From Cyanobacteriota bacterium (GTDB lineage Bacteria > Cyanobacteriota > Cyanobacteriia > PCC-6307 > Cyanobiaceae): a DNA stretch of 50,208 nt. Below are positions 6,705-50,208 of the stretch, piece after piece. A program made the position numbers and the translations under genes. A model generated the notes under the pieces. It saw only the letters and a list, made by a program, of their open reading frames with translations, ran no database searches and was not told the DNA's origin. The DNA lies in the NCBI GenBank assembly GCA_026389265.1, contig JAPLIE010000152.1:1-50208 (forward strand). The letters are read 5' to 3'. Position 1 is the stretch's first letter; the number at the start of each line of letters is the position of its first letter.

Positions 6705-7712
6705 GTGACCACTTTCTCGACCGCAGAACGGGTGGAACCAGGCGAAGCCCAGGCCAACACCATGCAGGACACGCGCCGCCTCAGGCTGTTCAGCGGCAAT
6801 TCGAATCCCGAGCTGGCCCGCGAGATCGGGGCATACCTCGGTGTTCCAGATGGCCCCCGCGTGATCAAACGCTTTGCCGATGGCGAGCTCTATATCCAGA
6901 TCCAGGAGTCAATCCGAGGCTGTGATGTGTTTCTCATCCAGCCCACCTGCGCTCCGGTGAACGACCACCTGATGGAATTGCTGATCATGGTGGATGCCTG
7001 CCGGCGAGCCTCGGCTCGGCAGATCACCGCTGTGGTTCCGTACTACGGCTATGCCAGAGCCGACAGGAAAACCGCCGGGCGGGAATCGATCACCGCCAAA
7101 CTGGTGGCCAACTTACTCGTGAAGTCGGGGGTCGATCGGGTCTTGGCCATGGATCTTCACTCTTCGCAGATCCAGGGCTATTTCGATATCCCCTGTGACC
7201 ACATCTACGGTTCGCCAGTGCTGGTGGATTACCTCAGCTCCCGGAATCTCGAGCAGATGGTGGTGGTTTCACCCGATGTCGGTGGGGTGGCCCGTGCGCG
7301 GTCCTTCGCCAAGCAGATGCATGATGCCCCCTTGGCCATCATCGACAAGCGCCGCAGTGGTCACAACGTGGCCGAGAGTCTTACGGTGATCGGTGATGTG
7401 ACCGGCAAGACTGCGATCCTCATCGACGACATGATCGATACCGGCGGCACCATCTGCCAGGGGGCGAAGCTGTTGCGCCAGCGCGGAGCGGCCCGGGTGC
7501 TGGCCTGCGCCACCCATGCCGTGTTCTCTCCTCCCGCTGTGGAGCGGCTCTCTGAACCCGGTCTTTTCGAGGAGGTGGTGGTGACCAACAGCATTCCCAT
7601 GGTGCAGGAACGACGCTTCCCTCAACTGCGGGTGTTGTCCGTGGCCAACATGCTGGGGGAGGCTATCTGGCGCATTCACGAGGAGAGCTCCGTGAGTTCG
7701 ATGTTCCGCTGA
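6705..7712 (+). CDS. prs: Ribose-phosphate pyrophosphokinase (PRPP synthetase)
   Basis: Prs makes 5-phosphoribosyl-1-pyrophosphate from ribose 5-phosphate and ATP for nucleotide, histidine, tryptophan and NAD synthesis. Visible landmarks are LRLFSGNSNPELAREIGAYL at the start of the conserved region, the divalent-cation site MDLHSSQIQGYFDIP, the flexible-loop region YARADRKTAGRESITAKL and the PRPP-binding loop ILIDDMIDTGGTI. The 335 residues include an N-terminal extension of about 20 residues if the GTG at 6705 is used; ATG at 6762 is the alternative start and would match the usual 310-320-residue length. The next gene starts 11 bp downstream on the same strand, but that one encodes a secreted hydrolase with no obvious metabolic link. 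Confidence 0.97.
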   Translation: MTTFSTAERVEPGEAQANTMQDTRRLRLFSGNSNPELAREIGAYLGVPDGPRVIKRFADGELYIQIQESIRGCDVFLIQPTCAPVNDHLMELLIMVDACRRASARQITAVVPYYGYARADRKTAGRESITAKLVANLLVKSGVDRVLAMDLHSSQIQGYFDIPCDHIYGSPVLVDYLSSRNLEQMVVVSPDVGGVARARSFAKQMHDAPLAIIDKRRSGHNVAESLTVIGDVTGKTAILIDDMIDTGGTICQGAKLLRQRGAARVLACATHAVFSPPAVERLSEPGLFEEVVVTNSIPMVQERRFPQLRVLSVANMLGEAIWRIHEESSVSSMFR

Positions 7713-7722
7713 CCCAGGCTGC

Positions 7723-9144
7723 GTGAACGGTCCCGATCCCCCGTCAGCGCCGGAGCAGCTGGCGCCATTTCGGCGCCACGCTCACCTGAAGCGGCTGCTG
7801 CCGGTCAGCCTCACGCTGATGGTTTCGGCCGTTCTCCAGTTGCTGGGCCACCTCGGGGGCGGCCCCCGGGCCTTGGCGGGCGAAGGTCCGGCTCCGGGGG
7901 AACGGCGGGTGGGGGTCTGGCTCACCAACAGCCCAAGCCCGCTCTATTACGACCCGGCCCGAATCGACGCGGCGGTGGAGGCGCTGGCGGCCACGGGATT
8001 TAACACCCTCTATCCCAATGTTTGGAGCCGAGGCGCCACGTTCCATCGCAGCCGCTGGGCCCCGATCGAACCGGCCCTGGCCGAGGTGAATCCCGATTTC
8101 GATCCCATCTGCCGGCTCACCGAGTCGGCCCGACGCCGCGGCATGCAGGTGGTGCCCTGGTTTGAATACGGCCTGATGGAGCCTGGTGATGCCGAAGTGG
8201 TGCGCCGGCATCCCGACTGGGTGCTGCGCCGCTCCGATGGCAGTGCCCTGTTCGCCATGCATGGAGCCAACCTGGCCACCTCACCGCTGAAGGATCTGCG
8301 GGTCTGGCTGAACCCTGCCCACCCCGGCGTCCGGCAGCGCTTCATCGGCCTGATCACCGAGATCGTGCAACGTTGCGGTGTGGCTGGCATCCAGCTCGAC
8401 GACCACTTCGCCTGGCCGGTGGAACTGGGTTACGACGACACCACCCGGGCCCTCTACCGAGCCCAAACGGGCCAGGACCCTCCCCTGGATCCATACGACC
8501 GCTTCTGGATGCGCTGGCGGCGTCAGCAGCTCACCGCCCTGCTGCGGGAACTGCGCGCCAGTCTCCAGAAGGCATCGGGCCAGCGACGCATCGTGATCAG
8601 CCTTTCGCCGGGCCCCTTCCGCTTCGCCTACAACCAATGGCTGCAGGACTGGGAGCTCTGGGCCCTGGGGGGACTGATCGACGACCTGGTCGTGCAGAAC
8701 TACGCCTATTCGATCACCGGATTTGCCAAAGATCTCGACCAGCCGGCCCTCGTGAAGGCCCGCACCTGGGGGATTCCGGTGGAGATCGGCATCCTGGCCG
8801 GCTTCGGCACCCGCACCACCAGCATGGAAAACCTCAGCCAGAAGGTTCAGCTGGTGGCCCAGCGGGGCCATGGGGTGATCTATTTCTACTGGGAGGGCCT
8901 CTGGGGAACCTATGCCGGCAAAGAAGGTGGACCCTATCGGCAGGCCACCTTCGCCCAACTCCACAAGGCCCACTTCGGAGTGGGGAGGGGTGCCGTCACG
9001 GCCCCCTTCCGACCCGCCCCCCCCACCTTCAAGATGCCGCCGCCACTACCCGCGGCAACCAGCTTCCCCACCCAGCCCCTGCGCCCGCCGCGCACCGTGT
9101 GGCGAAGGCCCCAGCCGCCACCACCACCTCCCCTTCCGGATTGA
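7723..9144 (+). CDS. Secreted family-10-like glycosyl hydrolase (GHL10 / DUF187)
   Basis: GHL10 proteins are TIM-barrel enzymes, often secreted, presumed to cut polysaccharides or peptidoglycan-like glycans. An N-terminal hydrophobic stretch (LLPVSLTLMVSAVLQLLGHL) ending near ALAGE serves as signal peptide. The barrel begins RRVGVWLTNSPSPLYYDP. Family landmarks are GFNTLYPNVWSRG, GMQVVPWFEYGLM, WLNPAHPGVR, the probable catalytic-region GIQLDDHFAWP, and GVIYFYWEGLWG. A Pro-rich tail of about 55 residues (ending PPPPPPLPD) follows the barrel. The start GTG at 7723 leaves a long n-region before the signal helix. About 140 bp of this gene (8020-8160) recur as a remnant near 11394-11535, showing the gene was part of a duplicated unit. 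Substrate is unknown. Confidence 0.85.
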   Translation: MNGPDPPSAPEQLAPFRRHAHLKRLLPVSLTLMVSAVLQLLGHLGGGPRALAGEGPAPGERRVGVWLTNSPSPLYYDPARIDAAVEALAATGFNTLYPNVWSRGATFHRSRWAPIEPALAEVNPDFDPICRLTESARRRGMQVVPWFEYGLMEPGDAEVVRRHPDWVLRRSDGSALFAMHGANLATSPLKDLRVWLNPAHPGVRQRFIGLITEIVQRCGVAGIQLDDHFAWPVELGYDDTTRALYRAQTGQDPPLDPYDRFWMRWRRQQLTALLRELRASLQKASGQRRIVISLSPGPFRFAYNQWLQDWELWALGGLIDDLVVQNYAYSITGFAKDLDQPALVKARTWGIPVEIGILAGFGTRTTSMENLSQKVQLVAQRGHGVIYFYWEGLWGTYAGKEGGPYRQATFAQLHKAHFGVGRGAVTAPFRPAPPTFKMPPPLPAATSFPTQPLRPPRTVWRRPQPPPPPPLPD

Positions 9145-9439: not shown

Positions 9440-11329
9440 GTGCCCAACAGCAACTCTCCATCCGTTGTTGCACTGCTCTTCAGCACAATCGATCAAGCAG
9501 GCCTCAGCAATAGCCAGCGGTGGTTGGAGCCTCATACCGCCCACTCCGCCGGAAGCATTGCATCGATTCCGACCCTCTCCGTGCCGGAGCTGAACCTCTC
9601 GCTCCACCGACCTACGGCCAGAAGCGGGAACGTGAAAACAGCCGCACCGTTCGATCCGCAAGCAGCGGGGCTGCTGCAGGCGATCACCCGGAGCCCCGGC
9701 GGGCCCCGACCGGCCTCCACCAGAACAAGCGCTCCTCTGGGCCGTAGCACTCTGAGCCTGGCCCTGCGGCAGGAGACCCCTGGGGGGACCCGCCGGGCCG
9801 AACAACAGAGCGGGGATGTCCAGAGGTTGGCGGCTCCCCAGGCGACAGAGGCAAATCCGGTGGATTTCAGCAACGACAACGACCTACGCGAGGCGACCGT
9901 GGTGGCTGGCTCCGACCTGACCAGCACCGTGGCCCTGATGGATCTGGGCTGGACCTTTCAACTCCATTCCTCACCGACATCCAGCAAGGTGATCTACCTC
10001 GATTTCAACGGCCACACCACCACAGGCTATGGCATCCGGGCCGTGATCACCGGCTATGGTCCCTCCTCCAGCGTCGCAGGAGGCATCGCGATTGCAAACA
10101 GCTTCAATGCAGCCACGGATACGCCCTGCTTCATCTACAACAAAAGTCTCACAGGTGCGGCTGAAGCGGTGAGCCATGAGGTGGGCCATAGCCTCGGACT
10201 TTCCCACGACGGCACCAGCAGCAATGCCTACTACTACGGCCACGGCAGCGGCGAAATCAGCTGGGCACCGATCATGGGGGTTGGCTATAATAAAAATGTC
10301 ACATCCTGGGACAACGGTACCTACTACGGCAGCACCAACGGATCCGCCTCAGCCAACTATGGCCATGGCCCCAATGATATGGCTGTGATCAGCACCTTCA
10401 ATGGCTTTGGCTATCAACTCGACCAGATCGGCAACGATCTCAGTAGCACGGCAGCCCTTACGATCGCCGGCGGCGTGGTGAGTCAGTTTGGCAGGATCGA
10501 AACCTCCCTCGATAGCGACTGTTATTCCTTCCAGCTCCAGAGCAGCGGCAATGTGAATCTGAAGTTCGATCCCTATTGCTATCGGGCCTTTGTGGATCGT
10601 GATGGGGACTGGGGTGGTAGCAATCTGGTCTACACCGCACCGGTAAGCGATGGAAATAGCGGCACCCCCTATGCAGACAACGGCACAAATCTCGATCTCT
10701 CGGTGGGACTGTATTCGAGCTCCGGAAGCCTGCTCGGCAGCTTCAACAATGCGGGACTGGCCACCACCCTGGTCTGGTCCAACCTGGCGGCGGGTACCTA
10801 CTACGTGAAGCTCGATGGGGTTGGCACTGGCAACCCCACCAGCAGCACACCGAGCGGCTACAACGACTACGGCAGTGTCGGCAATTACCTGATCAGCGGC
10901 ACGATCGTCAACGCCCTCGACAGTGGCACTCCGCTGGCTACGACAACCGCACTGGCCCCCAAAGACTCAACACTCACCGCCGCGTTCAGCACCCCCACCA
11001 AAGCAGCGGCCCCTGCCGCCGGCCCCAGGGATTCCATCACCGGCATCACCGCCGGCTCCGTTCCCTCCCTGGCGACTCAATCCGACCCCCTATTGGCACC
11101 CCGTCTCACCGTTAAAATGATTGGTCAGGCATTCATGGGGTTCGGGGCCGACAGAATCGCCGGCCTCCAGGAGGGACCGATCGCTGCCCCGGCACTCCCC
11201 CCGCTGCTGGGTTCCTTGGGCGAACCCTCCCGATCCCCGTTCGCCGCTGATCTCCCGACAGCATTCGGGGCTCCGGGGCTGGGCAGCGAGCGGCTCTACA
11301 CAGAGCGGCCGGCCTGGTTCCTGGCCTGA
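9440..11329 (+). CDS. Secreted metzincin-type zinc metalloprotease with C-terminal PPC-like domain, copy 1 (internal deletion)
   Basis: The zinc-binding signature HEVGHSLGLSHDG gives His246, His250, Glu247 and third ligand His256, followed by the substrate-site stretch WAPIMGVGYNKN with the metzincin Met-turn (IMGVGY). After the protease part a pre-peptidase C-terminal (PPC) beta-sandwich follows (about residues 325-490, with YVKLDGVGTG), then a Pro/Ala/Ser-rich tail. The N-terminal 145 residues look like a low-complexity leader without a clear signal peptide. At Gly196/Tyr197 (nt 10027/10028) HTTTG is joined directly to YGIR; related proteins, and copy 2, carry a segment here including RVAADFAPFDVNVTT. 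About 65 residues therefore seem to be missing in frame, so activity is doubtful. Start GTG at 9440 is uncertain. Confidence 0.75.
   Translation: MPNSNSPSVVALLFSTIDQAGLSNSQRWLEPHTAHSAGSIASIPTLSVPELNLSLHRPTARSGNVKTAAPFDPQAAGLLQAITRSPGGPRPASTRTSAPLGRSTLSLALRQETPGGTRRAEQQSGDVQRLAAPQATEANPVDFSNDNDLREATVVAGSDLTSTVALMDLGWTFQLHSSPTSSKVIYLDFNGHTTTGYGIRAVITGYGPSSSVAGGIAIANSFNAATDTPCFIYNKSLTGAAEAVSHEVGHSLGLSHDGTSSNAYYYGHGSGEISWAPIMGVGYNKNVTSWDNGTYYGSTNGSASANYGHGPNDMAVISTFNGFGYQLDQIGNDLSSTAALTIAGGVVSQFGRIETSLDSDCYSFQLQSSGNVNLKFDPYCYRAFVDRDGDWGGSNLVYTAPVSDGNSGTPYADNGTNLDLSVGLYSSSGSLLGSFNNAGLATTLVWSNLAAGTYYVKLDGVGTGNPTSSTPSGYNDYGSVGNYLISGTIVNALDSGTPLATTTALAPKDSTLTAAFSTPTKAAAPAAGPRDSITGITAGSVPSLATQSDPLLAPRLTVKMIGQAFMGFGADRIAGLQEGPIAAPALPPLLGSLGEPSRSPFAADLPTAFGAPGLGSERLYTERPAWFLA
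9887..10028 (+). repeat. 142-bp identical block, copy 1
   Basis: Identical base for base to 12257-12398, although flanking homologous sequence differs visibly. It begins within the codons for LREATVVAGSDL and ends at ACAGGCT, exactly where the internal deletion of copy 1 begins. Confidence 0.9.
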
Positions 11330-11393
11330 ACGCCAGCCACGGAGCGAATTGCTTCTGCCGCAGGGATGCGGTGGCAGCGATTCGCCTTTTTCG

Positions 11394-11535
11394 TATTTGG
11401 AGTCGGGGTGCCACGTTCGATCGCAGCCGCGGGGCCCGATCGAACCGGCCCAGGCCAGGGTGAATGCCGATTTCGATCCCATCTGCCGGCTCACCGAATC
11501 GGCCGAGCGCTGCGGCATGCAGGCGGTGCCCTGTT
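11394..11535 (+). pseudogene. Remnant of the GHL10 hydrolase gene
   Basis: The frame around 11430-11535 reads PIEPAQARVNADFDPICRL and then TESAERCGMQAVP, nearly the same as hydrolase residues from about 8068 to 8157 in the intact gene (PIEPALAEVNPDFDPICRL). Only about 45 codons survive, without start or continuation, and the sequence jumps to the post-hydrolase spacer after about 11540. The rest of the gap 11330-11752 holds the 3' tail of unit 1 (to about 11381) and the protease upstream region of unit 2 (from about 11715). No intact gene is seen in this 424-bp stretch. Confidence 0.85.
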
Positions 11536-11752
11536 CGCCAGCGGCTCTCTGACCGGAAGGCGGCGCGAATCGGCCAGCGGAGCGCCGATGCCGCCGGGGA
11601 AGGGGAACGGCAACAAGCCAGAACATCAGGCGCATTCGGCCCAGGACGCCCTCACCGAGACTAATCATGACGCCATGGCCATAGCGAAATAGTCTTCTTA
11701 GGCGAATCAGGACCAGTAAACAAAGCGGCTTTGCGCATCATATGTGCTGTAG

Positions 11753-13821
11753 ATGCAAACCCAACTTGACGAAGTCTGCAGCGGTTCAATCCAGGGACCC
11801 GCAGCTACTGTCCATTCGTTGTTGCACAGCTTTACAGCCAGATCGATGGATCAGCTTGGCCTCAGCAAGAGCCCACGGTGGCAAGATCTTTCTGCCCCCA
11901 ACTCCGTCGGCACCTACGCATCGATTCCGATCCTCTCCGTGGCGAATCTGAACCTGACCCTTCATCGCCGACCAGCCGCCAGCAGAAAGGCTGAAGCTCT
12001 TCGCAGCCGGCGATCCCCCGGCAACGGGGTCAGAGCAGGCGATCACTTTGAGCCCCGGCTTACCCCGACCGGTCTCTCTCAACAGCAGCGCCTTCCTGAG
12101 CATCGCCGTTCTGAACAAAAACCTCAGGCAGCAAGACCCTTGGGAGACGCGCCGGGCCGATCACCCAACTTGAACAGCGGAGATTGCCTCAACTTGGCAT
12201 CACCCAAGATGCCGGAATGCCATCTAGTGGAGTTCAGCGAGGACCACGACCTGCTGCGCGAGGCGACCGTGGTGGCTGGCTCCGACCTGACCAGCACCGT
12301 GGCCCTGATGGATCTGGGCTGGACCTTTCAACTCCATTCCTCACCGACATCCAGCAAGGTGATCTACCTCGATTTCAACGGCCACACCACCACAGGCTGA
12401 GCCGAATCCAGCAGATCTGGCAGCGGGTGGCTGCTGATTTCGCGCCCTTTGATGTGAATGTCACCACCCAGGCACCACCAACCGACTGGCTGATCAAGAG
12501 CAACCGCAGCGATCCGAACTACGGCATCAGGGTCGTGATCACCAGCTATGGTCCATCCTCAAGCGTCGCGGGAGGCATCGCGATCGCAAACAGCTTCAAT
12601 GCAGCCACGGATACACCCTGCTTCGTCTATAACAAAAGTCTCACAGGTGCGGCTGAAGCGGTCAGCCATGAGGTGGGTCATACCCTCGGGCTCTCCCACG
12701 ACGGCACCATGAGCAGCAGCTACTACTACGGCAATGGCAGTAGCGAAACAAGTTGGGCACCGATCATGGGAGTGGGCTACAACAAAAATGTCACATCTTG
12801 GGACAATGGTACCTACAACGGTAGCAACAACGGATCCGCCTCAGCCAACTATGGCCGTGGCCCCGATGATATGAGCGTGATCACAAAATTCAACGGCTTT
12901 GGCTATCAGCTCGACCAGATCGGCAACAATCTCAGCAGCGCCGCAGCCCTCACGATCACCGGCGGCGTGGTGAGGCAGTTCGGCAGGATCGAAACCTCCC
13001 AAGACAGCGACATTTACTCCTTCCAACTCAAGAGCAGCGGCGATGTGAACCTGAAATTCGATCCCTATTCCTATCGGGCCTTTGTGGATCGTGACGGTCT
13101 CTGGGGGGGGAGCAAACTCGTTTACACCGCACCGGTAAGCGATGGCAACAGCAGCACCCCCTATACGGACAGCGGCACCAATCTCGATCTCGCGGTGGGT
13201 CTGTTTTCGAGCTCAGGCAGCCTGCTCGGCACCTTCAACTCAGCGGGTCTGGCAACCACTCTGCCCTGGTCCAACCTAGCGGCGGGTACCTACTACGTGA
13301 AGCTCGATGGGGTTGGCACTGGCAACCCCTCCAGCAGCACACCGAGCGGCTACAACGACTACGGCAGTGTCGGAAACTACCTCATCACTGGCACGATCAA
13401 CAAAGCCCTCGACAGCGGCACGCCGCTGACAACCACAACCGCATTAGCCCCCAAAAGCTCAACCTTCACCGCCGCGACCAGCACCTCCGGCAATGCGGCG
13501 ATCCCCGCCTCCGCACCCAGGGATTCCATCACCGGCATCACCACCGGCTCCGTTCCCTCCCTGGCGGCTCAATCTGACCCCCTGCTGGCACCCCGTCTCG
13601 CCGCCACGATGCTGGGTGCGGGATTCTCAGGGTTGTGGGCGAACAGAACCGCCGGCCTCCAGGAGGGACCGATCGCTGCCGCGGCAGTCGCCCAGCTGCT
13701 GCCTTCCTTGGGCGAACCCTCCCGATCCCCGTTCGCCGCTGATCTCCCGACAACATTCGGGGCTCCGGGGCTGGGGATCGAGCGGCTCAACACAGAGCGG
13801 CCGGCCTGGGCCCTGGCCTGA
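11753..13821 (+). pseudogene. Metzincin-type protease, copy 2, broken by a stop/frame change at 12398-12400
   Basis: The 5' part (11753-12400) runs as one frame from ATG through VIYLDFNGHTTTG and stops at TGA. The protease continues in another frame from CTG at 12397: LSRIQQIWQRVAADFAPFDV, then NYGIRVVITSYG, HEVGHTLGLSHDG, IMGVGYNKN and the PPC-like domain to 13821. The sequence expected between HTTTG and LSRIQQ in this family (about 30 residues) is absent, so a deletion both removed codons and changed frame. Unlike copy 1, copy 2 keeps the RVAADFAPFDV segment. Apart from this junction the 3' frame is clean, suggesting the break is recent. A separate internal start for the 3' part is not obvious. 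Confidence 0.8.
12257..12398 (+). repeat. 142-bp identical block, copy 2
   Basis: Exact match to 9887-10028. It ends at the point where the reading frame of copy 2 meets a stop and the deletion begins, so both copies share the left breakpoint but have different right breakpoints. Confidence 0.9.
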
Positions 13822-49621: not shown

Positions 49622-50208
49622 CAGCGGAACGGCGGCGAGTAGATCAGGCCGCCCTCCTTCCACTGCTTGTTCACGCCGCGATCCAGCTTGAGGCGGGAGC
49701 CGGGGCCCACGTTGCGATCGAAGATCTCGCCGTAGTTGCCCACGGCGCCGATGATCTTCGGCACGAAGTCGGCCGGCAGGCCCAGCTGCTTGCCGAATTC
49801 ACCCTCCACGCCGAGGAAGCGGCGCAGGTCGGCCTGGTTGGCCTTGGCCTTGGCCTCGGCCACCTTGGCAGCCACGTTGGCCTTGGTGATGCCCAATTCC
49901 TCAGCCTGGAACAGGGTGTTCACGGTCCAGCGAACGGCATCGGCCCACACCGGATCGGCATTCACGGTGGCCGGGGTGAGCGGCTCCTTGCTCATCACAT
50001 CCGGCAGGAGGGTGTGGGCATCGGGGCTGGGGAAGCTGCTGCGCTTGCCCGCCAGCTGGGAGCGGTCGCTGGTGACCGCCACACAGCGGCCCTGCAGGTA
50101 GGCGGCGTAGGTCTGGTCACCGGTCTGAAACTTGAGCGGGGTATAGGGGATGCTCTGCTCGCGCATCCGATCGGCCAGGTTGAGCTCGGTGGTGGTGCCG
50201 CTCTCGAC
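49621..50208 (-). CDS. aapJ: Polar amino-acid ABC transporter substrate-binding protein, C-terminal part (cut by window edge)
   Basis: The frame is open to the window edge (first visible residues VESGTTTELNLADRMREQSI), so only the C-terminal 195 residues are seen. They include YLQGRCVAVTSDRSQLAGKR, the type 2 periplasmic-binding-protein core, and the AapJ-typical end with GVEGEFGKQLGLPADFVPKI, IGAVGNYGEIFDRNVGPGSR and a C-terminal NKQWKEGGLIYSPPFR. AapJ/BztA proteins bind glutamate, glutamine, aspartate and related polar amino acids in the periplasm; which of these is bound here cannot be read out. The signal peptide lies outside the window. The stop overlaps the aapQ start by 1 nt. Confidence 0.93.
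   Translation of the reverse strand, partial: VESGTTTELNLADRMREQSIPYTPLKFQTGDQTYAAYLQGRCVAVTSDRSQLAGKRSSFPSPDAHTLLPDVMSKEPLTPATVNADPVWADAVRWTVNTLFQAEELGITKANVAAKVAEAKAKANQADLRRFLGVEGEFGKQLGLPADFVPKIIGAVGNYGEIFDRNVGPGSRLKLDRGVNKQWKEGGLIYSPPFR

Follow-up and report, generated by a model that had tools for sequence, protein, structure and literature searches.

Probable assembly artefacts at the two deletion junctions that end a 142-bp identity block in tandem cyanobacterial protease genes

Background

Contigs that MEGAHIT or metaSPAdes breaks at repeats share end sequences as long as the largest word used (maxK), and a MEGAHIT k-list with 141 as its last value has been described (COBRA, PMC10914622); local assembly errors are also on record for metagenome-assembled genomes (PMC7111523). 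The locus considered here resembles these cases in its exact 141-bp shared ends, in its breaks at repeat nodes and in what is probably wrong local sequence at repeats. It differs from plain MEGAHIT contig ends in that the shared word lies inside a contig and is followed by missing sequence without any N, so that an extra joining step is needed.

Two natural processes invite comparison. Homology-facilitated illegitimate recombination (HFIR), known from Acinetobacter baylyi, Streptococcus pneumoniae, Pseudomonas stutzeri and Escherichia coli, combines a homologous join at one end with an illegitimate join at the other and produces deletions (PMC3240628); the locus may share with it such a pair of borders and a deletion linked to the copying of sequence. 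Gene conversion among tandem paralogues leaves diverged neighbours with a stretch over which they are identical, as is also seen here, but conversion alone would not yield two different deletions at the edge of the patch. The genes themselves are akin to the metzincin-like peptidases (Reprolysin_3, PF13582) in zinc motif and profile match, and differ, as assembled, by lacking 71 codons or 91 bp before the zinc site.

Results

The locus and its two protease genes

The window, that is, the whole stretch of DNA that was analysed (50,208 nucleotides), is the entire contig C64 of a draft genome assembled in 214 contigs that total 3.49 Mb. The reference is G023 (Cyanobium sp. LBMAG_Cyanobacteria_epi.bin3), a close and syntenic relative of the same genus. 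At the same place (locus L027) it carries a single intact protease orthologue with a 723-aa frame, in which the order is HTTTG, then TSWNN...NNEELSRIQQ, then DSNYGIR. The window contains the following features.

1-141, no strand: contig start, common with the start of contig C194; marks k = 141
9440-11329, + strand: protease copy 1, comprising the N-terminal region, the 142-bp block and the metzincin body from YGIR (open reading frame, Pfam match, alignment to G023)
9887-10028, + strand: identical block, copy 1 instance; 9887-10027 is exactly 141 long and T10028 is common by coincidence
10027-10028, no strand: junction 1; 213 bp (71 codons) carried by relatives are missing (alignment to L027 and relatives)
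11396-11533, + strand: gene remnant homologous to 8021-8159 (88%) within the upstream 473-aa gene (7723-9144); a small indel breaks its frame
11533-11553, no strand: place of the missing duplicated upstream gene and spacer, about 1 kb (L027:5995 to 7034)
11553-12256, + strand: copy 2, N-terminal part; identity to G023 about 70%, several indels
12257-12398, + strand: identical block, copy 2 instance, an exact match to the copy 1 instance
12397-12398, no strand: junction 2; 91 bp carried by relatives are missing and the frame breaks at TGA 12398-12400
12397-13821, + strand: body of protease copy 2 from LSRIQQ onward, 474 codons, no stop
50068-50208, no strand: contig end, of which exactly 141 bp recur as reverse complement at the end of contig C192; marks k = 141

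Copy 1 is one open frame of 629 aa, with a Reprolysin_3 match at E=8.9e-6, above the cut-off. Copy 2, as assembled, is split into 11753-12400 and a second frame ending at 13821; a programmed frameshift was considered and rejected, no slippery sequence being seen by eye at CACCACAGGCTGAGCC. A PF13582 match above the cut-off and the motif HExxHxxGxxHD are found alike in copy 1, copy 2 and G023. The zinc motif of metzincin peptidases, HExxHxxGxxH, is present as HEVGHSLGLSHDG and HEVGHTLGLSHDG, with HEVGHxLGLSHDG in both tandem genes, and a sequence-only search of the PDB returned no significant match. Upstream of the zinc motif the catalytic domain is incomplete as assembled in both copies, by the 71 codons and the 91 bp respectively; these parts are probably not missing in the real genome. 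Comparison of the two bodies gives a dN/dS of about 0.35, and neither contains a stop, indicating that both were constrained for most of their history. Purifying selection on both bodies is thus probably real, and constraint of such duration does not fit an old inactivation by the two deletions.

Changes specific to copy 2 affect 22% of sites in its N-terminal part (11553-12256) and 6% in its body (12520-13818); the two parts have had different histories or constraints.

The remnant lying between the protease copies marks a lineage-specific tandem duplication followed by a loss of about 1 kb. The composite between the copies is absent from the other genus members searched, and the tandem duplication with its gene remnant is probably real.

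The identical block

The preliminary description of this DNA had reported that 9887-10028 and 12257-12398 match at every base while their flanks have diverged. Both statements hold: the match is exactly 142 bp long, bounded by an A/G mismatch on the left and another on the right, and about 32% of sites differ up to the left boundary against 12-13% on the right. The block is present at these two places only in the whole 3.49-Mb assembly. The sharpness of its left boundary comes from the strong divergence of copy 2 there, with 95 changes specific to copy 2 and 34 specific to copy 1 over 428 sites.

Identity between the copies has to be judged against the conservation of the block itself, which is strong (94% identical to G023, with 8 differences in 140 compared sites). 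Scaled by the right flank, about 5.6 differences between the copies would be expected and none is found (P ~0.004-0.009), so that the identity exceeds constraint only moderately. Identity of the copies over at least 141 bp is probably real and gene conversion its likely source; it is plausible that this stretch, if not more, was converted recently. The points that stand out are the common left breakpoint and the length, 142 = 141 + 1. Further long identical runs, of 51, 43 and 49 bp, occur between the protease bodies and hint at conversion.

Sequence missing at the junctions

Alignment to L027 bears out the earlier claim of a common left breakpoint with different right breakpoints, the left edge being ambiguous by 1-2 bp. 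Positions 10027 and 12397 each correspond to L027:7910, directly after ACAGGC. In copy 1 the alignment resumes at L027:8123, so that 213 bp are missing and the frame is kept; in copy 2 it resumes at L027:8002, and the 91 bp missing there, a length of 3n+1, cause the frameshift. Microhomology at each junction, compared with L027, is 0-2 bp. The full-length sequence between HTTTG and YGIR, which the preliminary description had proposed to look for in sister genomes, is indeed present in an open frame in the genus relatives that have this part of the gene. A search of the assembly for the missing 91 bp and 213 bp matched the two copies only and turned up neither segment at another place.

A word-size signature in the assembly

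In a de Bruijn graph, a contig ends at the first word common to another path, exactly k bases past the point where the flanks diverge. A census of 1.77 Mb, about half the genome, found 35 pairs of contig ends overlapping by exactly 141 bp. Such end overlaps point to a de Bruijn assembler with a final k of 141. The block fits one k-word, since 141 bases run from the last left-flank difference to ACAGGC and are followed by a T shared by chance. In the same 1.77-Mb sample it is the only exact repeat above 137 bp with both instances in contig interiors, the next longest being 137 bp. A k = 141 unitig cannot contain one 142-mer twice; its double occurrence in C64 therefore implies joins of another kind, that is, some joining step, in the contig.

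A run of 23 Ns stands in contig C149 (L195) at 6935-6957, in an apparently coding region where G026 has about 65 bp. It may be a scaffold gap or a mask; it is compatible with scaffolding, at which it hints.

A second locus with the same anatomy

Contig C102 carries a comparable arrangement. Its first 141 bp recur exactly at 7615-7755, and directly after 7755 about 170 bp of G023, and a longer equivalent stretch of G026, are missing before the sequence becomes collinear again. A carboxysome shell gene with a BMC domain is truncated here (C102, L146, 7615-7756) at its start codon, exactly where the repeated 141-mer ends; the stretch lost includes this codon and the ribosome-binding site of the gene. 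Natural loss of this gene start is unlikely, and an assembly error there is likely. The anatomy of a 141-mer followed by missing sequence is thus found at three places in the assembly, the two junctions of C64 and the one of C102, and three losses at the exact end of a repeated 141-mer make it most likely that the C64 junctions are of the same artefactual kind.

Sequence of the carboxysome region also exists in two versions about 90% alike, C102:1-1621 and C76:1589-3229; this pair suggests either a bin that mixes two related organisms or a duplication.

Discussion

Judging from the sequences, we put at about 0.8 the probability that the two deletion junctions are assembly artefacts. The junctions, and with them the frameshift of copy 2, are accordingly described here as probably false. 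The tandem paralogues would be truly identical over at least 141 bp, probably as a result of recent gene conversion. An assembler working at a final k of 141 would then halt each copy at the first common 141-mer, exactly 141 bp past the left-flank difference, and the pieces would have been abutted to the next downstream contigs, the sequence between being omitted without an N run. The downstream contigs would start with ATGGC or TATGGC for copy 1 and with GAGCC or TGAGCC for copy 2. Such a course would account at once for the length (141 plus a chance T), for breakpoints that agree on the left and differ on the right, and for the frameshift of copy 2; we infer that both genes are full length in the real genome. 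An assembly error over a repeat was among the explanations offered in the preliminary description, and the 141-bp overlaps of contig ends and the second locus on C102 lend it support. Gene conversion ending at a deletion, also proposed there, survives in part: conversion may well account for the identity, but it need not have ended at a deletion.

Several observations count against an artefact. Blunt junctions are not made by a de Bruijn assembler alone, and the artefact requires the assumption of further scaffolding or merging; a tool for either purpose that sets contigs end to end with no Ns between them would suffice, and a program of this kind presumably lies behind the joins. In addition, the right-hand pieces have no shared 141-mer of their own at their start, and the omitted 91 bp and 213 bp did not turn up in the rest of the assembly. 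Finally, real decay has occurred nearby, in the form of the remnant gene and the indels in the N-terminal part of copy 2, and real deletions would fit there too.

Were the junctions real, the most economical account would be one recombination event from one paralogue into the other, one-sided and with an illegitimate join on the right. HFIR between the tandem paralogues might have run as follows. Copy 1 would have had its 213-bp deletion first; a broken end of copy 2 would have paired with copy 1 over the block and been repaired from it, and at the end of homology it would have been joined illegitimately to downstream copy 2, so that its 91-bp deletion began at the left edge of the older one. 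The opposite direction would serve as well. One event would then cover an identity that ends exactly at a deletion junction in both copies, and both the absence of differences in the block, where about 5.6 are expected, and the identical runs of 51, 43 and 49 bp, which hint at repeated conversion, are in its favour. We nevertheless consider this course unlikely. The length of the copied tract coincides with k + 1 of the assembler, a 142-mer should not occur twice inside a k = 141 contig, and the same anatomy recurs on C102 in an unrelated and conserved carboxysome gene. The case also departs from known HFIR in that the donor would be the neighbouring paralogue and that the 0-2 bp of junction homology fall short of the usual 3-10 bp (PMC3240628). 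Should the junctions be real after all, for which the chance is small, one tandem paralogue would have been repaired from its neighbour on one side, with a short patch copied and the edge of the deletion set by the donor's own deletion.

It is still less probable, and indeed very unlikely, that the bin contains two co-occurring species, that the contig fuses their copies of one locus and that the tandem arrangement itself is false. The bin does appear to hold two versions of some regions (C76 and C102) with about 90% similarity, and the composite between the copies occurs in this genome only. On the other hand, the duplicated upstream gene is present as a frame-broken remnant in a spacer that runs on with no 141-mer seam, which is what an old tandem duplication should leave. 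The unit shows no break between 10028 and 12256, and each protease body resembles the other more than it resembles G023.

Least credible of all are two independent decay deletions sharing their left edge through a hot spot at HTTTG, whether a hairpin, slippage or an excised element. The surroundings, with a decaying remnant gene and a deletion of about 1 kb, would suit them, but no relative is deleted at this point, and the identity and its length would be left unexplained. Neither the hairpin raised in the preliminary description nor slippage was borne out, single-strand folding around the breakpoint showing no structure beyond that of shuffled sequences (z +0.94 to -1.26). Nor did its other suggestion, an insertion excised at HTTTG, find any sign: the missing segments show no terminal repeats and are ordinary conserved protein sequence in the relatives, which are intact there.

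In assemblies of the metagenome type, missing sequence directly behind an identical block as long as k (here 141) can be recognised as a seam, and any pseudogene or deletion hot spot claimed at one calls for a comparison with the word size of the assembler. This comparison also flags the carboxysome shell gene on C102, which would otherwise be taken as truly truncated.

A third, distant protease paralogue, with 42% identity, is found at G000 contig C122:45744-46823; it lies in a long protein whose peptidase region is intact and whose C-terminal domains are repeated.
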